In this document: positions 29,755 to 44,288 of the stretch, piece after piece
Layout: each line of letters opens with the position of its first letter
Position numbering within the stretch: position 1 is the stretch's first letter
Translations under genes and position numbers: made by a program
Notes under the pieces: generated by a model
What the model was told of the DNA's origin: nothing
Seen by the model: the letters and a program-made list of their open reading frames with translations, nothing else
The model's database searches: none
DNA from: Ensifer adhaerens
GTDB taxonomy: Bacteria; Pseudomonadota; Alphaproteobacteria; Rhizobiales; Rhizobiaceae
Assembly (NCBI RefSeq): GCF_002940685.1
Contig: NZ_PNFP01000005.1
Coordinates: 62,001-126,000 of the forward strand
DNA: 64,000 nt
Direction: 5' to 3'

Positions 29755-32700
29755 ATGAACGATATGCTGAAGACCACGCCTGACTTTTCGACCGAAGCGG
29801 CCGCCGCCGTGCTGAAGGAGCATTACGGCCTCGCCGGTACGCTCTCGCTGCTCGCCAGCGAACGCGACCAGAACTTCAAGGTCGAGGCTGAGGACGGCAG
29901 CATCTCCATTCTGAAGATCATCAATGCCGCCGAGCCCGAAATCGAAGGCGATTTCCAGACGGCGCTGCTGAAGCATGTCGGTACCCACGCCGCAGATCTG
30001 CCGGTACCGCATGTCCGGCCGACGCTTGCCGGCGCGAGCCTGGCTTCGACGACAAGTGCGCGCGGCGTCACCCATCGCCTGCGGCTCGTCAGCTGGGTCG
30101 AGGGCCTGCCGCTTGCCGAAACCGGGCGCAGCGACGCAGCGCTTCAGTCGCTCGGACAGATGCTCGGCCGCTTCGATGCCTCGCTCAAGGGCTTCATGCA
30201 TCCGGGCGCGCTGCGCGATCTCGACTGGGACATCCGCCACGCCGGCCGCTCGGCTGACCGGCTGCACCACGTCGCCTCGGCCGACGATCGTGCTTTGCTC
30301 GAACGCTTCCTTGTCCGCTTCGAAAAGACCGTGGCGCCACGTCTTGCCACCCTCCGCGCCGCCGTGATTCACAACGACGCCAACGACTGGAACGTGCTGG
30401 TTGATAAAGTCGATCACGACACCATTTCCGGCCTCATCGATTTCGGCGACGCCCTGCATGCGCCCGTGGTTGCCGAGGTCGCGATCGCCGCCGCCTATGC
30501 CGGGCTCGACCACCCTGATCCGATCGGCGCCGCCGCTGCGATCGCCCGCGGCTTCCATACCGAATATCCGCTGGCGGAAGAGGAGGTCGACCTGCTCTTC
30601 GATCTCATCGCCATGCGCCTCGTCACATCGGTCACCATCTCGGCCTCGCGCCGCGCCCACACCGACGACAATCCCTATCTCGCGATCAGCGAGCGGCCGG
30701 CCTGGACGCTGTTGCGCAAGCTCGACCGGATGAACCCGCGTTTCGCCACCGCCATCCTGCGGCATGCCTGCGGCTTCGAGGCAACCCCGGGCGCCCACGC
30801 GGTTTCCGCCTGGATCCGAGAGAACCGCAAGACACTGAAGCCGCTGCTTGCGCGCCCGGCCGCAACCTACCCGGCAGCGCTGGTGCCCTATGGCGACCCC
30901 AAGCACCCGATGACGGTGAAATCCGCAGGGGAACAACCGGACGAGGCTCAGGCGATCTGGGAAGACTATTGCCGCGAGCACGGCGTCGAACTCGGCATCG
31001 GCCCCTTTGGCGAGGAGCGTACCGTCTATGCGGGCGAGATGTTCGTTTCGCGCTTCATCGATCACACCCGCCGCACCCGCCATCTCGGCCTCGACCTGTT
31101 CATGGCCGCCGGCACCAGGCTCTACACCCCGCTCGCAGCGACCGTCGTCAGCGTCGAGATCGAAGAAGACCCGCTCGGCTACGGTTGCCTGATCGCGCTT
31201 CGCCACGAGCCGGAGGGTTGCCCGCCCTTCGTCACCCTCTGGGGGCACATGGCGCATGAAGCCATGGGACGCATCAAGGCCGGTGATCGGCTTGCGGCCG
31301 GCGCGCTCGTTGGCGAAATGGGCGCGCCGAAGGAAAACGGCGGCTGGGCGCCGCATCTGCATCTGCAGCTTTCGACCGACACCAGCCTCTCGGCGACCGA
31401 AATCCTCGGCGTCGGCGAACCGCAGTTTCTCGACGTCTGGGCCGAGCTCTTCCCCGATGCGCGCACCTTTGCCGGCATTTCCGACGAATTCTACGAGAAG
31501 AAAGGTCGCTCGCACGAGGAGATCGTCAAGCGCCGCAAGGAACTGCTCCTGCCGAACCTCTCGATCTCCTACGACAAGCCGATCAAGTTCGTGCGTGGCG
31601 AAGGCGTCTGGCTGATCGACGACAGCGGCCGCGCCTATCTCGACTGCTTCAACAATGTCTGCCACATCGGCCACGCCCATCCGGCTGTCGTCGAGGCGAT
31701 GGCAAAGCAGGCGGCAATTCTCAACACCAATACCCGCTACCTGCACGACAACATCGTCGCCTATGCCGAGCGGCTGACGGCGACGCTGCCGAAGGAGTTG
31801 ACGGTCGCGGGCTTCGTCAACAGCGGCTCCGAGGCCAACGGCCTGGCGCTTCGGCTGATGCGCGCCCATACCGGCCGCGAGAATGCGATCACGCTCGACT
31901 GGTCCTATCACGGCACGACCCAGGAGCTGATCGACATCAGCCCCTACAAGTTCCGCCGCAAGGGCGGCAAGGGTCCGAAGCCGCACGTCCATGTGGCGAC
32001 CGTTCCCGACAGCTACCATGCACCGGCCGACTGGCCAGCAGAGGAACACGGCAAGCGCTTTGCCGCAAGCGTCGCCGAACTGATCCAGGCGATGAAGGCC
32101 AAGGGCGAAGGACCGGGCTTTTTCATCGCGGAATCGATCCCGAGCGTCGCCGGCCAGGTGTTCCTGCCTGAGGGCTACCTGAAGGAGGTCTACCGCCTCG
32201 TGCGCGAAGCCGGCGGCGTCTGTATCGCCGACGAAGTGCAGGTCGGCTTCGGCCGTGTCGGCAGCCATTGGTGGGCCTTCGAGACGCAAGGCGTCGTGCC
32301 CGACATCGTCACCATGGGCAAGCCGATCGGCGACGGCCATCCGCTCGCAGCCGTGGTCACCACCCGCGAGGTGACCGACAGCTTCAACAACGGCATGGAG
32401 TATTTCAACACCTTCGGCGGCAACCCGGTCTCCTGTGCCGTCGGGCTTGCGGTGCTCGACGTGATCGAAGGGCATGATCTGCGCGGCAACGCGCTTGAGA
32501 TCGGCAACTACCTGATCGACGCCTTCCGTGCCATGCAGGCCCGCTACGAGGTGATCGGCGACGTGCGCGGCATGGGCCTGTTCCTCGGCATCGAGCTTGT
32601 TTCCGATCGCAAGACCAAGGCGCCGGCAACCGAATTCGCCCGCGCCGTCTCCAATGGTGCCCGCCGCCGCGGCGTGCTGATGGGCACCGAAGGTCCGCAT

Positions 32701-32811
32701 GACAACGTTCTTAAAATGCGTCCGCCGATGATCTTCTCGAAACGCGATGCCGACCACCTTATCGCCGTGCTCGAAGAAACCTTCGCGGATGTGAGCAGCA
32801 GGCTCGGCTGA
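29755..32811 (+). CDS. Three-domain fusion: APH-type kinase, M23 domain, class III aminotransferase
   Basis: A 1018-aa cytosolic protein (no signal peptide). Domain 1 (about 1-330) is an APH/choline-kinase fold with catalytic [10 protein letters not shown] (His206, Asp208) and metal motif DFGD (Asp229). Domain 2 (about 420-560) is LytM/M23-like with intact zinc ligands: HLGLD (443, 447), His498 and HLH (534, 536). Domain 3 (about 590-1018) is a class III aminotransferase with PLP lysine at about 856 in [11 protein letters not shown]. The aminotransferase type resembles ETNPPL/PHYKPL ammoniophospholyases and the kinase resembles hydroxylysine kinase. A two-step phosphorylate-and-eliminate pathway on an amino alcohol or hydroxy amino acid is inferred. 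ATG 29743 is an alternative start. Confidence 0.85.
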
Positions 32812-34036: not shown

Positions 34037-36961
34037 TTACCAGCCTTCCTCCAGCACCCGGCCCAGCATGTCGGCAAAGAAATCGGCGCTCTCGCGGGAT
34101 AGGCAGAGCGGCGGCTTGATCTTCAACACGTTCAGGTGGTCGCCGGTCGGCTGCATGATGACGCCGAGCTCGAGCAGCCGGTCGCAGATTGCTGCCGTCT
34201 CCTCCGTTGCCGGCGACAGGGTCTCCCGATCGCGCACGAATTCGACGCCGAGATAGAGCCCCATGCCATGCACGGCGCCGATCAGCGGAAAGCGCTGCCC
34301 CAGCGCTTCGAGCCGGGCCTTCAGATAGCTGCCGACGACACGGGCGTTCTCCGGCAGCCGCTCTTCGGTCAGGATATCCAAAACCACCTGCCCGACGACC
34401 GAACTCACCGGGCTGCCGCCGGAAGACGAGAAGAAGTATCCCTCCTTCTCCAGCGCATCGGCGATCTCGCGGCGGGTGATGACGGCGCCGAGCGGATGGC
34501 CGTTGCCCATGCCCTTGGCGACCGTGATGATATCGGGCACCACGCCCTGCTCCTCGAAGCCCCAGAAGTAATCGCCAAGGCGGCCGTAGCCGACCTGCAC
34601 TTCGTCGGCGATGCAGACGCCGCCGCGTGCCCGCACCATGGCATAGACCGCGTCGAGATAGCCCTTTGGCAGAGGAATGCCGCCGGCATTGCCGTAGACC
34701 GGTTCGCAGATGAAGCCGGCGAGCTTCTCGTCGGCCGCGTCCAGTTCGGTGAGCTTCTTGACGACCGAGCGGACATAGCTGTCGGTGGTATCGCCGCCAC
34801 GGAACTCGCCGCGATAGGTGTTGGGTGCGGTGACCGCATGCACCCAGGCCGGGCGGGTTTCGAGCGCCTGAGGATTGTCGGCGATCGAGGTCGATACGGC
34901 GTCGCTGGCGACCGTCCAGCCGTGATAGGCCTCGAGCAGGCTCACGACATTGCGCGCGCCGGAATAGGCCCAGGCGAGCCGAAGCGCGAGATCGTTCGCC
35001 TCCGAGCCGCTGTTGACCAGAAACACCGTGTCGAGCCCGTCGGGGGCGAGTGCTGCAAGCCGCGTCGAGAAGTCGGCGACGGAGGCATAGTGGAAGCGCG
35101 AATTGGTGTTGAGCAGGGACCATTGCCGTCCCACGGCAGCCGCAAGCCGCGGATGCCCATGGCCGAGGATAGTCACGTTGTTGACCATGTCGAGGTAGCT
35201 GCGGCCCTCGATGTCGAAGAGATGATCCTTCCAGCCGCGCTCGATCTGCGGTGGTTTCAGGTAGTAGTTCTTCTGCGGCCTGGCAAAGTGCTGCTGGCGG
35301 CGGGCGAGCAGCGCTTCGCTATGGGGTTCCGGCCCGTCGCATTCGAAACCGAGCACACCGGCCGGCGAAGGGCAGAGATGCTTCCAGGCTTCCGCCTGAT
35401 GCGGCATGGCGAATAGCGGCGGCACGAGGCCATGCTCGCGGCAAAGCTGGACGCGGATCAGCCCGTAGGATTGCTGTTCGCCGGAGACCATGCCGAGCGC
35501 CGCCCCGGCGACAACCGTCTCTGAAAGGTCGGCATGGGCTTCCACGCCTTCGAGAAACAGGCTGGCCTCGGCGCCTTCGAGCACCAGCAAGCCATCCTGC
35601 CGGACGACACGGGCGGAGAAGGGAGCGGTGATTTCGCGGCCCGCCGCCAGGCAGATATCGACGTGCAGCGCCAGCGTCGCGTCCGGCTTCGGCGACCGCA
35701 GTTGGGTCTCCGTCATCCGGTATTCGCCGTAGCGGGTGGTCGCGACACCGATCGCGTGTGCGGCGTGCTGCAGCAACGAGATCGGCAATCCCTGGTGCTG
35801 CCAGCGCTCCTCCGGCAACAGCGGGCTCAGGATCGACAGATCGATCTGGCGCACGTCTGTCGGGCCGAGCCCCCGGATCAGGCTGTCGCCGCCAACCGGC
35901 GCTGATACCGGCGCGAGCCCTACCGCCGCCAGGATGGCGTGCTCCATCAGCGCCGTCGGAACCGAGCTCGCCACCTCGAAAATCTCCCGCTCATGCGCGG
36001 CATTGCCCTCGACATAGGCGTTATCCGGCTCGCGGGAAAGCTGGTGTTCGGAGCTGGCGACCAGCACGGCGGCACGGGCGACGATCAGCGGCCAGAGCGC
36101 CTTCAGCTCCGCCTCGGTCAGCGGGCATTCCGCATGAAACGCCTTGACCGCCGGCAGGATGAACCAGGGATCGCCATCGGCATGATGCAACAGCGAAGCA
36201 CAGGTGACGGCGAGTTCGGCGACCAGCCAGCCGTTGAGGATATCGCCGAAATCGATGACGCCATCGGGGATTGGTCGGCCGGATGCGTCGGGCTGGCCCA
36301 CCACATTGTCGTCGGTGACATCGTGGTGGATCGCCTGCGTGCGCAGGTCCGCCGTGAGCGGCTGCAGCCGCCGCATGGCGCCGACCATGATTTCGGCAAT
36401 GCGCTTCCGGCGCTGCTGGTCCGGCATGTCGGCGAGGAGATGGAGCACGACCGGGCCGGCGCGGCGCAGGTCCCACTGCAGTTCGCGCTCGAGCCCGGGA
36501 TGCTCGAAATCCTGCAAGGCGGCGGCGAGCTTGCCCGCCAGCCGGCCGAGTGCGGCAACGGTTTCGTGCGACAGATGCTTGCGCCGGGTCAGCGGTTCGC
36601 CATCGAGATAGGTGAGCAGGCGGATCCGATAGGCCTGGTCCCGGACGGCAACGCTCTCGATCGCATCGCCCTTGAGTGAGGGCACGACCTCCGCGACCCT
36701 TGCAGTGCTCAGACGTCCGGCAAGGTGCCGCAGGACCGCGTTCTGCGCTTCCAGTTCCAGCGGCTCGTATTCCGCGCGGCAGATCTTCAACACATAGCGC
36801 CGCGCGCCAGTGTCGAGGCGATAATTACGGTCCTGCTGGCTGCCGAGTTCCATGATGGTACCTGACAGACCGTAGTGGTCGGACAGCAGCGCGTGCGCCT
36901 CTTCGGCGCTGACATCGGGTCTCGGGAGCTCGGTGCGAAGCTTCAGCGCGTCCTCAACCAT
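34037..36961 (-). CDS. Second fusion: APH-type kinase, degenerate M23-like region, class III aminotransferase
   Basis: A 974-aa paralogue of the fusion protein 4 kb away, no signal peptide. The kinase has IHHDVTDDN (His212, His213, Asp214) and DFGD. The class III aminotransferase domain has its PLP lysine at about 816 in VAKGMGNGHP. The middle region aligns to the M23 domain but reads LHVDIC where the first copy has HLGLDLF, and LIRVQL where it has HLHLQL, so zinc ligands appear lost. Likely a kinase plus ammoniophospholyase for a related amino substrate. Proposed regulator: the Lrp gene at 29.2 kb or an unseen one. Confidence 0.84.
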   Translation of the reverse strand: MVEDALKLRTELPRPDVSAEEAHALLSDHYGLSGTIMELGSQQDRNYRLDTGARRYVLKICRAEYEPLELEAQNAVLRHLAGRLSTARVAEVVPSLKGDAIESVAVRDQAYRIRLLTYLDGEPLTRRKHLSHETVAALGRLAGKLAAALQDFEHPGLERELQWDLRRAGPVVLHLLADMPDQQRRKRIAEIMVGAMRRLQPLTADLRTQAIHHDVTDDNVVGQPDASGRPIPDGVIDFGDILNGWLVAELAVTCASLLHHADGDPWFILPAVKAFHAECPLTEAELKALWPLIVARAAVLVASSEHQLSREPDNAYVEGNAAHEREIFEVASSVPTALMEHAILAAVGLAPVSAPVGGDSLIRGLGPTDVRQIDLSILSPLLPEERWQHQGLPISLLQHAAHAIGVATTRYGEYRMTETQLRSPKPDATLALHVDICLAAGREITAPFSARVVRQDGLLVLEGAEASLFLEGVEAHADLSETVVAGAALGMVSGEQQSYGLIRVQLCREHGLVPPLFAMPHQAEAWKHLCPSPAGVLGFECDGPEPHSEALLARRQQHFARPQKNYYLKPPQIERGWKDHLFDIEGRSYLDMVNNVTILGHGHPRLAAAVGRQWSLLNTNSRFHYASVADFSTRLAALAPDGLDTVFLVNSGSEANDLALRLAWAYSGARNVVSLLEAYHGWTVASDAVSTSIADNPQALETRPAWVHAVTAPNTYRGEFRGGDTTDSYVRSVVKKLTELDAADEKLAGFICEPVYGNAGGIPLPKGYLDAVYAMVRARGGVCIADEVQVGYGRLGDYFWGFEEQGVVPDIITVAKGMGNGHPLGAVITRREIADALEKEGYFFSSSGGSPVSSVVGQVVLDILTEERLPENARVVGSYLKARLEALGQRFPLIGAVHGMGLYLGVEFVRDRETLSPATEETAAICDRLLELGVIMQPTGDHLNVLKIKPPLCLSRESADFFADMLGRVLEEGW

Positions 36962-37075: not shown

Positions 37076-37822
37076 TTACTGCGACATGCCCTCCAGCCGG
37101 TAGCGGGTGCCGGGATAGAGCAGCCGCGCGGTCGTCACATTGCCCGCGTCCGACCAGGTGCGACGCCGGATCATCAGGCACGGTTCGTTGCGGTCGATGC
37201 CGAGCAACTTGCATTCCCAGAGTTGCGGCGACACGGCCTCGACAATCTGCTCGGTGCGGGTTATCGGGGCCATCGCCGTCAGATAGGCATTCGGCGTCAT
37301 CGCCTGGAAATCCTGCTCCAGATAGCGCGGGCAGATCGCCGGGTTGACGAAACGATCCTCGATCTGGATCGGCAGGCCGTTTTCCGAATGCACCATGATC
37401 GAATGAAAGACGCGGGCGCCGGTGGCAAGGCCGAGCGCGTAGCCGGTTTCGGGCGTCGCCACCTCCTCCTGCAGAAGCGTCATCAGCGACGTGTGCGTAT
37501 GACCACGTCCATGGATCTCGTCGGCGATATTGCGCACTTCCAGAAGCGCCGTGCTGCCCTTATGGGCCGCCACGAAGGAACCGACACCCTGCACCCGGGT
37601 GATCGCACCCTCGGTCGCAAGCTCCCTGAGCGCCCGGTTGGCGGTCATGCGGCTGACGCCGAGATCGGCGACGATCTCGTTTTCCGAGGGGATACGGTGA
37701 TGGGCGGGCCATTCGCCGCTCTCGATGCGGCTGCGGATGAACTGCTTGACCGCCTCGTAGCGCGGCACCGGGCCGTCTTCAAAAACGACCGTCTCATTCC
37801 GTTTTCCCAGTGCCGTCATCAA
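37076..37822 (-). CDS. hutC: HutC, GntR-family histidine utilisation repressor
   Basis: 248 residues: an N-terminal winged HTH of GntR type (YEAVKQFIRSRIESGEWPAH, then ADLGVSRMTANRALRELATEG) and a C-terminal UTRA effector domain. HutC represses hut genes and is released by urocanate. It is divergent from hutF with 127 bp between starts, and a palindromic site lies in that interval. Confidence 0.9.
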   Translation of the reverse strand: MMTALGKRNETVVFEDGPVPRYEAVKQFIRSRIESGEWPAHHRIPSENEIVADLGVSRMTANRALRELATEGAITRVQGVGSFVAAHKGSTALLEVRNIADEIHGRGHTHTSLMTLLQEEVATPETGYALGLATGARVFHSIMVHSENGLPIQIEDRFVNPAICPRYLEQDFQAMTPNAYLTAMAPITRTEQIVEAVSPQLWECKLLGIDRNEPCLMIRRRTWSDAGNVTTARLLYPGTRYRLEGMSQ

Positions 37823-37949: not shown

Positions 37950-39332
37950 ATGCACATGGCTAGTTTTCCCGTCAACCGGATCTTTGCAGAACGGGCTCTC
38001 CTGCCCGGCGGCTGGGCCGAAAACGTCGCGATTTCACTCGACGCTTCCGGCCGCATTGCAGCGATCGAGACCGGCAGCACCGCCTCAGGTGGCGACGAGC
38101 GCGCGGCCGGGCCACTGGTCCCGGCGATCGCCAACCTGCACTCCCATGCTTTCCAGCGCGCCATGGCCGGTCTTGCGGAAGTGGCGGGCAGCGGTAACGA
38201 CAGCTTCTGGACCTGGCGCGAGGAAATGTACCGCACCGTCGGCCTCGTAAACCCCGACGATGTCGAGGCGATCGCCGCCAAGCTCTATATGGAGATGCTG
38301 AAGGGCGGCTTCGGCCACGTTGCCGAGTTCCACTACCTGCACCATCAGGCCGACGGCACGCCCTATTCCGATGCGGCCGAGATGTCGCTGCGCATTCTCT
38401 CAGCCGCCCGCACGACCGGCATCGGCCTCACCCATCTGCCGGTTTTCTACGCCCACGCCAATTTCGGCGGTGTCGCGCCCAATCCCGGCCAGCGTCCCTT
38501 CCTGCACGATCCCGAGCGTTTCCTGGCTCTGCTTGAACGCCTCGAGCCGCCCTGCCGCGAGCAAGGCCACACGCTCGGCTACGCCATTCATTCGCTGCGC
38601 GCGGCGACGCCCGAGGAAATGCGCACCATCCTCGATGCCGCACCCGTTGCCGGCCCGATCCACATCCACGTGGCCGAACAGACCAAGGAGGTCGATGACA
38701 GCCTCGCCTGGAGCGGCCGCCGCCCGGTCGAGTGGCTGCTCGATGAAATGCCGGTCGATGAACGCTGGTGCGCAATCCACGCGACGCATCTGACCGAAGC
38801 CGAGCGGCAGCGCCTGGCACGCTCCGGCGCCGTTGCCGGCCTCTGCCCCGCAACCGAAGCCAATCTCGGCGACGGCATCTTCCCGGCGGTCGAATTCATG
38901 GCCGAGGGCGGCATCTTCGGTGTCGGCACCGACAGCCATGTGGCGACCAGCGTCGCCGAGGAACTGCGCCTGCTCGAATACGGCCAGCGCCTGCGCGACC
39001 GCCGCCGCAACCGGCTGGCCACCGGCCCCGGCGCTTCGATCGGTCGGACCATCTTCGACGCGGCCCATAAGGGCGGTGCCCAGGCTGCCGGCCAGACGAC
39101 GGCGGGGGTCACCGTCGGCGCCCGCGCCGATTTCGTCGTGCTCGACGGCAGCAACCCCTACATCGCCGCCGCCACCGACAACCAGATCCTCGACCGCTGG
39201 CTCTTTGCACTCGGCGGCGAGACTGTCCGCGACGTCATGGTCGCGGGCGCGTGGAAGATCCAGAACGGACGCCACGACCGGGAGGACGATATCGACCGCG
39301 CCTTTGCGCGGGTGCTGATGAAACTGAAGTAA
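37950..39332 (+). CDS. hutF: Formimidoylglutamate deiminase
   Basis: A 460-aa amidohydrolase-superfamily enzyme converting N-formimidoyl-L-glutamate to N-formyl-L-glutamate plus ammonia in the five-step histidine pathway. Metal/catalytic motifs: NLHSHAFQRAMAG, HIHVAEQ, CAIHATH and GTDSHVATSVAEELR. An ATG at 37956 is a possible alternative. The downstream enzyme HutG and the upstream HutU/HutI are not in this window, so the pathway is split. Confidence 0.92.
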   Translation: MHMASFPVNRIFAERALLPGGWAENVAISLDASGRIAAIETGSTASGGDERAAGPLVPAIANLHSHAFQRAMAGLAEVAGSGNDSFWTWREEMYRTVGLVNPDDVEAIAAKLYMEMLKGGFGHVAEFHYLHHQADGTPYSDAAEMSLRILSAARTTGIGLTHLPVFYAHANFGGVAPNPGQRPFLHDPERFLALLERLEPPCREQGHTLGYAIHSLRAATPEEMRTILDAAPVAGPIHIHVAEQTKEVDDSLAWSGRRPVEWLLDEMPVDERWCAIHATHLTEAERQRLARSGAVAGLCPATEANLGDGIFPAVEFMAEGGIFGVGTDSHVATSVAEELRLLEYGQRLRDRRRNRLATGPGASIGRTIFDAAHKGGAQAAGQTTAGVTVGARADFVVLDGSNPYIAAATDNQILDRWLFALGGETVRDVMVAGAWKIQNGRHDREDDIDRAFARVLMKLK

Positions 39333-39368: not shown

Positions 39369-40403
39369 ATGTCGATCAACAAACTGAAACTCACCCTTGC
39401 CGCCACCGGCCTCGTGCTTGCGGCTTCCACTGGCAGCGCCAGCGCCTCCTATTGCGGCGATGGCAAGACCGTCATGTTCGCCGGCATCGATTGGGAAAGC
39501 GGCGCCTTCATCACCGAGGTGATGAAGACCATCCTTGCCAAGGGCTACGACTGCCAGGTGGATTCGATCCCCGGCAACTCGGTGACGCTGGAACAGGCGA
39601 CCGCCAACAACGACGTGCAGATTTTCGCCGAGGAATGGCTCGGCCGTTCCGACGTCTGGAACAAGGCGGTCGAGGAGAAGAAGGTCGTTGCCGTCGGCAA
39701 GACCTTCGTCGGCGCCAGCGAAGGCTGGTTCGTGCCGGAATACGTGATCAAGGGCGATGCCTCGCGCAATCTCGAAGCCAAGGCGCCCGACCTGAAGAAC
39801 GTCTCGCAGCTTTCCGATCCGAAGATCGTCGAGCTTTTCGCCGATCCGGAAGAGCCGACCAAGGGCCGCTTCCTCAATTGCCCGTCGGGCTGGACCTGCG
39901 AGGGCGTCAGCTCCGCCAAGCTCGAAGCCTACAAGCTCGGCGAAACCTATGTGAACTTCCGCCCGGGCACCGGCACGGCGCTCGATTCCGCCATCACCTC
40001 TGCCTATCTCCAGGGCGAGCCGATCCTCTTCTACTACTGGTCGCCGACGGCGATCATGGGCAAGTTCAAGCTCGTCCAGCTCGAGGAGCCGGCCTATAGC
40101 GAAGCCTGCTGGAAGGAGCTTTCGAGCGCCAACGGCAAGCGCGAACAGGGCTGCGCCTTCCCGTCGGTCGATGTCTCCTACGGCGTCAACAGCACCTTCG
40201 CGCAGGAAGCGCCTGAGATCATCGCCATCCTTGAAAAGGCGACCTTCCCGCTCGAAGCCGTCAATGGCAGCCTTGCCTACATGGCCGACAACAAGGTCGA
40301 CGCGACGGCCGCTGCCGCCGAGTTCCTGAAGACCAAGGCGGACGTCTGGGGCAAGTGGGTTTCCGATGAAGCCCGCGGCAAGATCGAAGCCAGCCTGAAG
40401 TAA
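39369..40403 (+). CDS. hutX: Histidine/quaternary-amine ABC transporter substrate-binding protein
   Basis: 344 residues with signal peptide (LAATGLVLAASTGSASA). It is an OpuAC-type glycine-betaine/proline binding fold: FAGIDWESGAFITEVMKTIL, and GEPILFYYWSPTAIMGKFKL, where aromatic residues form the ligand cage. Context with hutW, hutV, hutH and hutD supports the histidine-uptake role known for rhizobial HutXWV. It is separated from hutW by 143 bp holding a strong hairpin. Confidence 0.87.
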   Translation: MSINKLKLTLAATGLVLAASTGSASASYCGDGKTVMFAGIDWESGAFITEVMKTILAKGYDCQVDSIPGNSVTLEQATANNDVQIFAEEWLGRSDVWNKAVEEKKVVAVGKTFVGASEGWFVPEYVIKGDASRNLEAKAPDLKNVSQLSDPKIVELFADPEEPTKGRFLNCPSGWTCEGVSSAKLEAYKLGETYVNFRPGTGTALDSAITSAYLQGEPILFYYWSPTAIMGKFKLVQLEEPAYSEACWKELSSANGKREQGCAFPSVDVSYGVNSTFAQEAPEIIAILEKATFPLEAVNGSLAYMADNKVDATAAAAEFLKTKADVWGKWVSDEARGKIEASLK

Positions 40404-40546: not shown

Positions 40547-41404
40547 ATGTTTCCGGATTCTCTCAATCTCTCCATTCGCGGGCCGGTGAACGATTTCATC
40601 CAGGCGCTGGTCAGCGGCTATGGCTGGGTCTTCAAGGCGATCAGCGCCGTCATCCTGAAGGCCGTTCTCTATATCGAATGGATCCTGCGCGGCCTGCCCT
40701 GGTGGGTCGTCATCCTGATCTTCATGGCGCTTGCCTGGCAGAGCTCGAAGCGCTGGGGCCTGACTGTCGTCGTCGGCGTTCTCCTGTTCTTCGTCGGCGT
40801 TCTCGGCCTCTGGGACCTGACGATGCAGACGCTGGCGCTAATGCTGATGGCGACGATCGTGTCGGTCGTCATCGGCGTGCCCATGGGCATCTTCGTCGCC
40901 AAGAGCCGGACGGTGCGCAGCATCACCCTGCCGGTGCTCGACGTCATGCAGACGATGCCGAGCTTCGTCTACCTGATCCCGGCGCTGATGCTCTTCGGCC
41001 TCGGCAAGGTGCCGGCGATCCTCGCCACCATCATCTATGCGGTGCCGCCGCTCATTCGCCTCACCGATCTCGGCATCCGCCAGGTCGATCACGAGGTGGT
41101 GGAAGCGGCGACCGCCTTCGGCGGCAGTCCCAACCAGATCCTCTTCGGCGTCGAGCTTCCGCTCGCCACGCCGACGATCATGGCCGGCCTCAACCAGACG
41201 ATCATGATGGCATTGTCGATGGTGGTCGTCGCCTCGATGATCGGCGCCCGCGGCCTCGGCGAACAGGTGCTGAACGGCATCCAGACGCTCGACGTCGGCA
41301 AGGGGCTGGAAGCCGGCATCGGCATCGTCATTCTCGCGATCGTACTCGACCGCATCACGCAAGGCTTCGGCAAGAGCCGGACGGAGGATCCCCGCAATGG
41401 CTGA
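40547..41404 (+). CDS. hutW: Histidine ABC transporter permease
   Basis: A 285-aa inner-membrane protein of the ProW/OpuAB family with about six membrane segments. The MetI-type EAA loop is visible around VVEAATAFGGSPNQILFGVE. It pairs with HutV ATPase and HutX binding protein for histidine (possibly also proline/betaine) import. Its 3' end overlaps hutV by 8 bp. Confidence 0.9.
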   Translation: MFPDSLNLSIRGPVNDFIQALVSGYGWVFKAISAVILKAVLYIEWILRGLPWWVVILIFMALAWQSSKRWGLTVVVGVLLFFVGVLGLWDLTMQTLALMLMATIVSVVIGVPMGIFVAKSRTVRSITLPVLDVMQTMPSFVYLIPALMLFGLGKVPAILATIIYAVPPLIRLTDLGIRQVDHEVVEAATAFGGSPNQILFGVELPLATPTIMAGLNQTIMMALSMVVVASMIGARGLGEQVLNGIQTLDVGKGLEAGIGIVILAIVLDRITQGFGKSRTEDPRNG

Positions 41405-42224
41405 TATCGAGATCCGCAACGTCTACAAGATCTTCGGACAGGACGCCAAGGCGGCACTCGCCATGGCCAAGGAAGGGCTGAACAAGTCCGAAATCCTCGC
41501 CCGCTCCGGCTGCAGCGTCGGCCTCAACAATGTCAGCCTGACGATCGGCGCCGGCAAGATCTTCGTGATCATGGGGCTTTCCGGCTCCGGCAAGTCGACG
41601 CTGGTGCGCCACATCAACCGGCTGATCGAGCCGACCAGCGGCGAAGTGGCGTTCGACGGCAGCAACATCCTGGACCTCGACGCCAAGGCGCTGCGCACCT
41701 TCCGCATGCACCGGGTCAGCATGGTGTTCCAGAGTTTCGCGCTGATGCCACACCGAACCGTGCTGCAGAACGTCGTCTACGGCCAGCGCGTGCGCGGCCT
41801 GCCCAAGGCCGAGGCCCGCGACATCGGCATGAAGTGGATCGAGACCGTGGGTCTCGCCGGCTACGACGCCAAGTACCCGCACCAGCTCTCGGGCGGCATG
41901 AAGCAACGCGTGGGTCTTGCTCGGGCGCTGGCCGCCGATACCGACGTGATCCTGATGGACGAGGCCTTCTCGGCGCTCGACCCGTTGATCCGCGCCGACA
42001 TGCAGGACCAGTTGCTGCAGCTGCAGCAGAACCTGTCGAAAACCATCGTCTTCATCACCCATGATCTCGACGAGGCGCTGCGCATCGGTTCGGAAATCGC
42101 CATCCTCAAGGACGGCCAGGTGGTGCAGGTCGGCACGCCGGACGATATCTTGGAGCGGCCGGCCAACGATTACGTTGCCCGCTTCGTGCAACGCCGACAG
42201 GGACGACCGGAAGCCCATGACTGA
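41397..42224 (+). CDS. hutV: Histidine ABC transporter ATP-binding protein
   Basis: A 275-aa ProV-type ATPase. Walker A GLSGSGKST, signature LSGGMKQRVGLARALA, Walker B VILMDEAFSALDP and switch His in FITHDLDEAL. It lacks the C-terminal CBS pair of full-length ProV, so it is a short version. It overlaps hutW and hutH by 8 bp each, consistent with one tightly coupled operon. Confidence 0.9.
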   Translation: MADIEIRNVYKIFGQDAKAALAMAKEGLNKSEILARSGCSVGLNNVSLTIGAGKIFVIMGLSGSGKSTLVRHINRLIEPTSGEVAFDGSNILDLDAKALRTFRMHRVSMVFQSFALMPHRTVLQNVVYGQRVRGLPKAEARDIGMKWIETVGLAGYDAKYPHQLSGGMKQRVGLARALAADTDVILMDEAFSALDPLIRADMQDQLLQLQQNLSKTIVFITHDLDEALRIGSEIAILKDGQVVQVGTPDDILERPANDYVARFVQRRQGRPEAHD

Positions 42225-43710
42225 GCTGAGGAATGAGACCATCACCCTCGATGCGCCGTTGACCTGGAAAGAGATCGCGGCGGTCGCCAATGGCGCCCGG
42301 CTCGAACTCTCCGATGCCGCCCGCCAGCGCATCGTCCATGCCCGCCGCATCGTCGACGCGCTGGTCGAGCGGGGCATCCGCGGCTACGGCATCAACACCG
42401 GCGTCGGCGCGCTCTGCGATGTCATCATCGACCGGGAGAACCAGCAGGCACTCTCGCGCAACATCATCCTCAGCCATGCCTGCGGCGTCGGCGCGCCGCT
42501 TTCCCGGCCCGAAGCCCGCGCCGTCATGGCCGCCCAGATCGCAAACTTCGCCCATGGCTATTCCGGCGTTCGTGTCGAAACGGTCGAGGCGCTGCTGGCG
42601 CTGCTCAATGCCGATCTCATTCCGGAGATCCCGTCACGCGGCTCGGTCGGCTACCTCACCCACGCGGCCGCGATCGGCCTCGTGCTGATCGGCCACGGAA
42701 GTGTCAATGACGGCAAGGGCAGGATCGGCGGCGCCGAAGCGCTCGCCCGGATCGGTCTCAAGCCGCTCACGCTTGAGGCCAAGGAAGGCCTCAGCCTCGT
42801 CAACGGCACGCCTTGCGCCACCGGTCTTGCGGCTCTGGCGCTCTCGCGCGCCGACCGCCTGTTCGACTGGGCGGATGCGGCTGCCGCCATGACCTATGAA
42901 AACCTCGGCAGCCAGGCCAACGCCTTTGCCGCCGTCCCGCTGGCGCTTCGTCGCTCCAAGGGGCTGGAAGACGTCGGCGCGTCGCTGCGCGCCTATCTCT
43001 TGGGTAGCCCGATGCTCGCCGAGACCGCCGGCACGCGCACGCAGGACCCCTTGAGCCTTCGCGCCGTGCCGCATGTGCATGGCGCTGCGCGCGATGCGCT
43101 GGCCCAAGTGGCCGAAGTGGTCGACCGCGAGCTGGCAAGCCTCACCGACAATCCGGCCGTATCGGGTACGCCCGAAGCGCCGGAGGTGCACTCGCAGGCG
43201 CATGCCGTCGGCGCTGCCCTCGGCCTTGCCATGGACAGCCTTTCGGTCGCCGTGGCCGAAGTCGCCGCAATCTCGGAACGCCGCATCGACCGGCTGGTCA
43301 ATCCGCTCGTCAGCGGCCTGCCGGCCTTCCTTGCCGGCGACAGCGGCGTCTCCTCGGGCTTCATGATCGCGCAGTACACCGCAGCCTCGCTCGCCGCCGA
43401 AAACAGGCGCCTCGCCGCCCCCGCCAGCCTCGATGGCGGCATCACCTCGGCGCTGCAGGAAGACATCCTCACCCATGCGACGCCGGCGGCCTGGAAGGCG
43501 CTGTCGATTGCCGACAATCTCGAAACGATCCTTTCGATCGAATTGCTCGCCGCATCGCAGGCCTATGACCTGCAGCCCCGTGGCCGCGCCGCACGCACCG
43601 ACGCGCTTTATCGGCGCATCCGTACCCAGATCCCGACCTATGCCGACGGCCGGCCGCTGAACGGCGACTTCGCGCACATGCGGGTACTCATTGAAGAGAC
43701 CATGCCATGA
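42217..43710 (+). CDS. hutH: Histidine ammonia-lyase-like protein lacking the MIO Ala-Ser-Gly triad
   Basis: A 497-aa aromatic amino-acid lyase fold protein. It keeps YGINTGVGAL, SHACGVGAPL, VNGTPCATGLAAL, TQDPLSLRAVPHVHG, ISERRIDRLVNPLVSGLPAFL and the QED acidic site, so it is plainly of the HAL family. Where HAL reads GSVGASGDLAP, forming the autocatalytic MIO electrophile, this protein reads GSVGYLTHAAA (residues 142-152). The deletion-like change is in frame and both flanks align, so a sequencing frameshift is unlikely. Either a non-MIO paralogue with a new role or inactive as a HAL. It sits inside the hut operon, overlapping hutV and hutD. Confidence 0.8.
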   Translation: MTELRNETITLDAPLTWKEIAAVANGARLELSDAARQRIVHARRIVDALVERGIRGYGINTGVGALCDVIIDRENQQALSRNIILSHACGVGAPLSRPEARAVMAAQIANFAHGYSGVRVETVEALLALLNADLIPEIPSRGSVGYLTHAAAIGLVLIGHGSVNDGKGRIGGAEALARIGLKPLTLEAKEGLSLVNGTPCATGLAALALSRADRLFDWADAAAAMTYENLGSQANAFAAVPLALRRSKGLEDVGASLRAYLLGSPMLAETAGTRTQDPLSLRAVPHVHGAARDALAQVAEVVDRELASLTDNPAVSGTPEAPEVHSQAHAVGAALGLAMDSLSVAVAEVAAISERRIDRLVNPLVSGLPAFLAGDSGVSSGFMIAQYTAASLAAENRRLAAPASLDGGITSALQEDILTHATPAAWKALSIADNLETILSIELLAASQAYDLQPRGRAARTDALYRRIRTQIPTYADGRPLNGDFAHMRVLIEETMP

Positions 43711-44288
43711 AGGTCCTCAGCGCCAGTAGCTACAAACGCATGCCCTGGAAGAACGGCGGCGGCGAGACGGTGGAGATCGCCGTCTCCCCCGAGAATGCCT
43801 CGCTCGCCGATTTCGACTGGCGCGTCAGCATGGCGACAGTGGCCACCGACGGCCCCTTCTCCAGCTTCCCCGGCATCGACCGCACGCTGTCGATTCTTCA
43901 GGGCAAGGGCATGCGGCTGATGATCGATGGCCGTGAACCCGTCCTGATGACCGGAGGAACGGCTCCGCTCCCCTTCCCGGCCGACGCCGCCACCACGGCA
44001 ACGCTGGTCGATGGTCCGATCGTCGACCTCAACGTCATGACAAGGCGTGGCAAGCTTGCCCATATGGTCCAGCGCGTGGCGCTCGATCATCCGTACAGGG
44101 CGGAAGCCTTGGGGGGAACGACGCTCGCGCTTTGCCATGGCGGCGCCGTGCGTTTGACCGCAGGCGAAGCCACGGCCGATCTCGCGGCGGGCGACACGGC
44201 CATCCTCGAAGGCTCTGCCGCTATCACCATCGAACCGGCTGCCTCTGCCGTCGTGTTCCTCATCACCATCGACACGCCGGCCGGCTGA
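43707..44288 (+). CDS. hutD: HutD family protein
   Basis: A 193-aa HutD/Ves-type cupin. It starts MKVLSASSYKRMPWKNGGGETVEIA, the family signature; further on are DWRVSMATVATDGPFSSFPG and DLNVMTRRGKL. It is proposed to bind urocanate/formimidoylglutamate-type ligands and tune hut expression. Its ATG overlaps the hutH stop (ATGA). Confidence 0.9.
   Translation: MKVLSASSYKRMPWKNGGGETVEIAVSPENASLADFDWRVSMATVATDGPFSSFPGIDRTLSILQGKGMRLMIDGREPVLMTGGTAPLPFPADAATTATLVDGPIVDLNVMTRRGKLAHMVQRVALDHPYRAEALGGTTLALCHGGAVRLTAGEATADLAAGDTAILEGSAAITIEPAASAVVFLITIDTPAG

Follow-up and report, generated by a model that had tools for sequence, protein, structure and literature searches.

A hut-operon homologue of histidine ammonia-lyase without the MIO tripeptide in Ensifer adhaerens, proposed as a hercynine trimethylammonia-lyase

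We analyzed a stretch of 64,000 nucleotides of the Ensifer adhaerens genome (the window; assembly GCF_002940685.1, NZ_PNFP01000005.1, positions 62,001 to 126,000 of the forward strand), which sits on contig C45 of the 7.5-Mb genome. Within a hut operon it encodes a homologue of histidine ammonia-lyase (HAL, the HutH protein), here called H2, that lacks the Ala-Ser-Gly tripeptide from which the 4-methylideneimidazole-5-one (MIO) group is made. Judged from its sequence and setting, H2 is probably an MIO-independent hercynine trimethylammonia-lyase, which would form urocanate and trimethylamine (TMA) as ergothionase does for its own substrate, but would feed the hut pathway. MIO is needed for an amine to leave, whereas a trimethylammonium group leaves by itself. 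We favor hercynine as the substrate because the binding protein encoded in the operon is of the OpuAC type and carries the tryptophans of ProX, because the ring-pocket residue Met382 of HAL is kept, and because the neighboring genes mostly belong to the hut pathway from urocanate onward. The gene and its informative segments are:

42217..43710, plus strand: H2, MIO-less HutH/HAL homologue, proposed hercynine (histidine betaine) trimethylammonia-lyase; PF00221, 497.9 bits.
42640..42663, plus strand: GSVG-YLTH loop, residues 142–149, with one Tyr for Ala-Ser-Gly-Asp, from comparison with the HutH of the same genome.
43042..43062, plus strand: QDPLSLR, residues 276–282, with Leu279 at the HAL Tyr280 position and HAL Gln277 and Arg283 kept, from the alignment.
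43204..43206, plus strand: Ala330 at the HAL Phe329 position, from the alignment.
43363..43365, plus strand: Met383, equivalent to HAL Met382, the ring-pocket position, from the alignment.

The H2 open reading frame runs from the ATG at 42217 to the stop codon ending at 43710 (497 amino acids), and the PF00221 match spans nearly its full length. H2 scores below both NCBIfam cut-offs for histidine ammonia-lyase (465.6 vs 524, and 453.2 vs 539.15 for TIGR01225). HAL numbering was taken from the alignment with structure 1b8f (P. putida HAL). Compared with the HutH loop (GSVG-ASGD-LAP), that of H2 is shorter by a net three residues. Tyr57, His87, Asn196, Gln276, Arg282 and Glu415 of H2 correspond to HAL Tyr53, His83, Asn195, Gln277, Arg283 and Glu414; Ser143, Asp145 (whose column H2 leaves empty), Tyr280 and Phe329 of HAL are gone. 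We take Tyr53 to be the base of HAL, and His83, Met382, Glu414 and Arg283 to contact the imidazole and the carboxylate. No MIO can form in H2 by known chemistry, because a single Tyr replaces Ala-Ser-Gly-Asp. Hence the parts linked to MIO and ammonia have been lost, and what remains is the machinery for binding an imidazole amino acid and abstracting a proton. A preliminary description of this DNA had reported the YLTH after GSVG, the missing tripeptide, a loop about three residues shorter and intact flanking Tyr, Asn, Arg and Glu motifs, all of which hold up against the HutH of the same genome and HAL; it overlooked the replacements of Tyr280 by Leu279 and of Phe329 by Ala330.

These features recur throughout the homologues. 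We compared 197 distinct sequences of at least 420 amino acids, of which 73 have Ala-Ser-Gly and 124 do not (103 H2, 13 ergothionase-type lyases and 8 others); one H2 copy spread over two frames (G050, L030/L065) was excluded from alignments and trees. Ala-Ser-Gly is absent from 103/103 H2 sequences and from all 15 copies read from another family of the same phylum, f27. The Tyr280 position holds Tyr in 73/73 sequences with the tripeptide and in 0/124 without it, with Leu in 103/103 H2. At the Phe329 position, 102 of the 103 H2 sequences have Ala and the remaining one Pro, which is also found in 15/15 of the f27 copies read. Wherever one of the 103 has a letter at these positions, the base and the Asn, Gln, Arg and Glu are conserved. 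One H2 sequence, from Sinorhizobium psoraleae (L083), is the only one of the 103 with Asp for His149 (GSVGYLTD). Separately, further PF00221 sequences were found without either Ala-Ser-Gly or Tyr280 (L159–L163, L165, L166, L170, L211–L213, L217), with loops such as GSLGTGDL, GSIGAGDL and GSVGQADM; Phe329 is kept in all eight of those counted.

The Met382 position separates the groups in another way. It is Met in 73/73 HutH and 102/103 H2 sequences and Gly in 13/13 rhizobial ergothionase-type lyases, as it is, by alignment, in the Treponema ergothionase. The sole H2 with Gln at this position is the copy on Agrobacterium pAt15955, which lies in an S-methyl-ergothioneine cluster. The residue thus seems to follow the substituent at ring C2, although the S-methyl type is represented by one sequence, and the window copy appears to be of the unsubstituted type. 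Retention of Met382 in the window H2 fits an unsubstituted imidazole as the substrate ring.

A structure predicted from 32 clade sequences (predicted local distance difference test, pLDDT, 89.1; predicted template modeling score, pTM, 0.90) indicates that H2 has the HAL fold. In Foldseek comparisons, the model matched the HAL mutant 1eb4 with a TM-score of 0.91 at 2.4 Å, and the ergothionase of Treponema denticola (6s7j) with 0.89 at 2.9 Å and 27% identity; identity to HAL structures was 34–36%.

According to the proposed mechanism, HutXWV would import hercynine (N-alpha-trimethyl-L-histidine, histidine betaine), and Tyr57 would take its beta proton. Being a good leaving group from the outset, the quaternary ammonium could then depart without MIO activation, as in ergothionase, and the loss of MIO, Tyr280 and Phe329 may make room for N(CH3)3. 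The urocanate formed would lift repression by HutC and subsequently be burned by the hut enzymes. HutC binds when urocanate is absent, according to the part of PMC8871633 available to us.

The operon consists of the divergent hutC followed by hutF, hutX, hutW, hutV, H2 and hutD, with the start of H2 overlapping hutV by 8 nt and its stop overlapping hutD by 4 nt:

37076..37822, minus strand: hutC, histidine-utilization repressor (GntR/UTRA), divergent; TIGR02018, 292.3 bits vs a cut-off of 220.
37950..39332, plus strand: hutF, N-formimino-L-glutamate iminohydrolase; TIGR02022, 704.3 bits vs 413.05; PDB 3mdu.
39369..40403, plus strand: hutX, OpuAC-type (glycine-betaine family) substrate-binding protein; profile match and ProX alignment.
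40547..41404, plus strand: hutW, ATP-binding cassette (ABC) permease; PF00528.
41397..42224, plus strand: hutV, ABC ATPase of the betaine/proline/choline family; TIGR01186, 349.1 bits vs 326.6.
43707..44288, plus strand: hutD; PF05962, 186.7 bits.

Trp90, Trp175 and Trp224 of HutX align with Trp65, Trp140 and Trp188 of ProX, which we take to be the residues that bind the trimethylamine moiety, and are kept in 10/10 HutX copies aligned. In E. coli ProX, this moiety of glycine betaine is held by Trp side chains (excerpt of PMC9732360). Adjoining hutC, the window also encodes a 974-amino-acid fusion of an APH-type phosphotransferase and a class-III aminotransferase (34037–36961, minus strand), with a 33% identical paralogue at 29779–32805.

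The genome contains three PF00221 genes: H2, a canonical hutH on contig C66 and an ergothionase-type lyase on contig C12. The preliminary description had placed the true HutH elsewhere and noted that hutU, hutI and hutG are missing here. Indeed, a search of the window found none of the three, and contig C66 carries hutU-hutG-hutH-hutI in a row, with Ala-Ser-Gly in its HutH (GSVGASGDLAP). The C12 lyase has ergothionase 6s7j as its best PDB match and sits with hydantoinase, carbamoylase-type amidase and DUF917 homologues and a urocanase homologue, which passes the NCBIfam cut-off for thiourocanate hydratase (1057.2 vs 930). These genes form an ergothioneine-degradation-like cluster (C12:86184–94059; L007:8185–16060). 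The thiourocanate hydratase and thiohydantoin genes therefore lie with the other lyase and not in the H2 operon.

An H2-clade lyase annotated as hutH is found in an S-methyl-ergothioneine cluster on Agrobacterium tumefaciens pAt15955 (L039:808–13491), together with HutXWV homologues and a TorA/BisC-related molybdoenzyme; it is 64% identical to the window H2. Its neighbors exceed the cut-offs of the NCBIfam models NF058531, NF058532, NF058538 and NF058540, as S-methyl thiourocanate hydratase (975.8 vs 880), S-methyl thiohydantoin desulfurase (537.9 vs 450), ErtD (782.8 vs 600) and ErtE (576.1 vs 520).

H2 occurs in Rhizobiaceae, other alphaproteobacteria, Burkholderiaceae and at least one gammaproteobacterium. 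In the window's family 23/151 genomes have a copy (56–92% identity; the next matches reach at most 41%), as do 31/119 genomes of f27 (46–52%). Every one of these genomes has a second match at the HutH level (230–268 bits in 23/23 and 252–276 bits in 31/31, respectively), judged by score, most of these second matches not having been read for Ala-Ser-Gly. Because this holds for 54/54 H2 genomes, H2 is an addition to HutH and not its replacement, and a simple replacement was ruled out. No ergothionase-type match was present in 15 of the 23 H2 genomes of the window's family, so H2 stands on its own. In a scan of named genomes, the best 80 loci, to which all counts out of 80 refer, span Rhizobiaceae, Tistrella, Thalassospira, Labrys, Kaistia, Acidisoma, Pseudogemmobacter, Burkholderiaceae and others, and Ala-Ser-Gly is missing in 80/80; the family, f27, named-locus and plasmid sets overlap partly. 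An intact H2 with GSVGYLTH is also encoded on a plasmid of Erwinia sp. E602 (L244:5768–11877). Many plasmid records label H2 copies as histidine ammonia-lyase. In a population-genomic study of Sinorhizobium, hutH2 is listed among putative selection targets, under osmotic tolerance/stress (portion of PMC3410850 consulted).

In a careful tree of 68 rows (without L211 and L215), all 27 rows of H2 fall into a single, strongly supported clade (bootstrap 100; Shimodaira–Hasegawa-like approximate likelihood ratio test 99), separate from the ergothionase-type group. A quick tree of 70 rows (representatives of the 197 sequences and extra rows) grouped H2 with HutH and other lyases with the tripeptide, distant from ergothionase. 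The careful tree requires two changes of Ala-Ser-Gly, but a single clade of all MIO-less rows was not rejected (approximately unbiased test, p-AU 0.204), and, as the tool cautioned, the long branches of ergothionase and of L170 join each other. An independent-pairs test had 1–2 pairs only.

The H2 neighborhood was scanned in flanks of 10 kb where the contig allows. Matches near H2 were found to hutC (71/80), hutF (53/80), hutX (51/80), hutU (33/80), hutI (29/80) and hutG (27/80). A hutH match occurs in 25/80, with Ala-Ser-Gly in 24 and cut by the contig end in one. The stretches L088, L135, L139 and L142 and an Aureimonas plasmid (L042) carry H2 with hutI, hutG and hutU and no hutH. Among 22 rhizobial stretches of other H2 genomes, 21 have a hutC-type match (two only 33–35% identical). 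Three H2 copies outside a hut context (L043, L111, L125) lie beside a gene for a fatty-acid-desaturase-family protein; L043 and L111 also encode a PhnD-type binding protein, and L043 has in addition genes for cytochrome c and molybdopterin-binding proteins. The APH/aminotransferase fusion has a match in 20/80 loci.

In one genome of f27 (L220), a single strand carries hutU, a gene for a permease of the cytosine/purine type, hutX, hutW, hutV, H2, hutH, hutI and hutG, in this order. Its H2 lacks Ala-Ser-Gly and nevertheless lies just above the NCBIfam hutH cut-off (540.2 vs 539.15), so misannotation as hutH is built in. According to the available part of PMC8871633, the order in P. fluorescens SBW25 is hutU, hutTu, hutXWV, hutH1, hutH, and HutH1 is dispensable for growth on histidine. 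By gene order alone, f27 would be the Pseudomonadaceae and SBW25 HutH1 would be an H2 protein. We take P. aeruginosa PA5093 to be an ammonia-lyase-like gene beside ABC genes. It is labeled hutG in the part of PMC12772324 consulted, and this label may deserve a check.

Several observations weigh against a hercynine lyase. H2 is not sister to the ergothionase-type lyases in the best tree, and Asn195, kept in 103/103 H2, is Ser in 13/13 of them. The Treponema ergothionase reads Asn-Phe in the Phe329 stretch, so the Phe329 change may not be common to both, and its loss was dropped as a shared hallmark of ergothionase. The model of H2 is poorest near the active-site loops, where mean pLDDT drops to 72, 64 and 55 by block. 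Ergothionase-type genes are more frequent in genomes of the family with H2 (8/23) than in its others (5/128; Fisher p 7e-5, uncorrected for relatedness). The importer also varies: the 22 rhizobial stretches include 6 with HutXWV, 13 with another ABC system and 3 with neither, and an amino-acid-type system replaces HutXWV in 9/80 loci by ATPase match. The binding protein of the other ABC system was examined in L041. Its closest counterparts are the binding proteins for octopine and nopaline, which gives no hint of a betaine; reading its sequence gave no clear answer as to the ligand. Near 7/80 loci (L091, L111, L125, L128, L131, L137, L144) no match to a hut enzyme or regulator was found, and the neighborhoods of L111, L125, L128, L131 and L137 offer no substrate clue. 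On the Erwinia plasmid, H2 is flanked by an amino-acid-type ABC system and by the gene of a cytosine permease, and the annotation shows no hut gene in the surrounding 19 kb. No DUF1989 protein, which we would expect of a trimethylamine N-oxide demethylase, was found in the window genome, and its matches to TIGR03105 (TMA use) all fall below the cut-off. HutXWV is involved in histidine uptake in P. fluorescens (PMC8871633, part consulted).

Some of these points would suit an MIO-independent lyase of another N-alpha-quaternary or activated histidine derivative, with hercynine as a side substrate only; candidate substrates are ergothioneine, S-methyl-ergothioneine, ergothioneine sulfonate, dimethylhistidine or an opine-like N-substituted histidine. 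The pAt15955 clade member among S-methyl-ergothioneine genes, the majority of rhizobial stretches with an ABC system whose examined binding protein is opine-type, and the H2 copies without hut genes nearby all speak for it. However, a gene of the ergothionase type and a thiourocanate hydratase are encoded elsewhere in the window genome, for which reason H2 was also disfavored as ergothionase itself; the window H2 also keeps the Met382 of HutH, and its hut operon contains no thiohydantoin genes. We regard this explanation as rather unlikely. Still less probable is a catalytically dead HutH paralogue, which would bind histidine or urocanate, or mix into HutH tetramers, and so regulate histidine use. 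The loss of MIO and the presence of hutH in the same stretch at 25 loci are in line with it, and active sites of HutH are assembled from several subunits. Against this stand the base and the substrate contacts conserved across the clade, the dedicated ABC importer with which H2 often travels, and the shared loss of Ala-Ser-Gly and Tyr280 in ergothionase, an active enzyme. The ligand-binding or regulatory role suggested in the preliminary description is accordingly disfavored, and its other suggestion, a paralogue with different chemistry, gains support from the distribution of Tyr280 and the hutU-G-H-I genes on another contig.

That H2 is an ordinary histidase, turning over L-histidine either with no MIO at all or by means of a cofactor built from other residues, appears very unlikely. 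Its fold, its identity to HAL structures and its hut context would agree with this, as would the histidine uptake by HutXWV; neither Ala-Ser-Gly nor Tyr280 is found in any copy read, though, and all 54 H2 genomes of two families have a HutH-level match. SBW25 HutH1, the same protein by gene order, is moreover dispensable on histidine (PMC8871633, in part). A sequencing or assembly error in the loop, which the preliminary description had named as a possible refutation, is hardly conceivable, as the same loop occurs in 103/103 distinct homologues, and a read error or pseudogene was ruled out. Its expectation of a clade tied to hutF and hutXWV proved right as to the clade, but many members have another importer.

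For the wider group, the balance tips slightly toward the hut regulon of rhizobia, some other alphaproteobacteria, Burkholderiaceae and probably pseudomonads serving also as a histidine-betaine pathway, in which a widespread 'histidase' would be a hercynine trimethylammonia-lyase that lost MIO independently of ergothionase and relies on HutXWV for import. If so, these bacteria would represent an unassigned source of TMA, and a common hutH annotation could be tested and reassigned by means of a single substrate and two products that are easy to measure. It could explain why Pseudomonas HutH1 is dispensable on histidine, and would add a step from fungal or microbial hercynine to urocanate, glutamate and TMA in plant-associated bacteria. 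The joint loss of MIO and Tyr280 suggests a mark of lyases that do not expel ammonia, usable across PF00221.

Most likely, H2 works like ergothionase and is closest in sequence to HutH. With HutH it shares the fold, Tyr53, His83, Asn195, Gln277, Arg283, Met382, Glu414 and the hut operon; in contrast to H2, HutH has the MIO tripeptide, Asp145, Tyr280 and Phe329. Since two defining features, Ala-Ser-Gly and Tyr280, are lacking, H2 should not be filed as a histidase. Ergothionase is HAL-like, has no MIO and releases TMA (PMC13405746, as far as its accessible part states), and would thus be the precedent of which the chemistry of H2 is a variation. In the open-licence literature we found no paper on a hercynine lyase forming urocanate, nor on an MIO-less histidine ammonia-lyase with TMA. 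Like H2, it combines a HAL fold without MIO with Leu at the Tyr280 position. The rhizobial ergothionase-type lyases differ in having Gly at the Met382 position and Ser at that of Asn195, and the one of the same genome is found with thiourocanate hydratase and not with hut genes; because its context and ring-pocket residue are different, H2 should not be filed as an ergothionase either. The window operon differs from the S-methyl-ergothioneine cluster in having hutF and hutD and not the thiohydantoin genes. The gene order around SBW25 HutH1 and HutXWV is the same as in L220.

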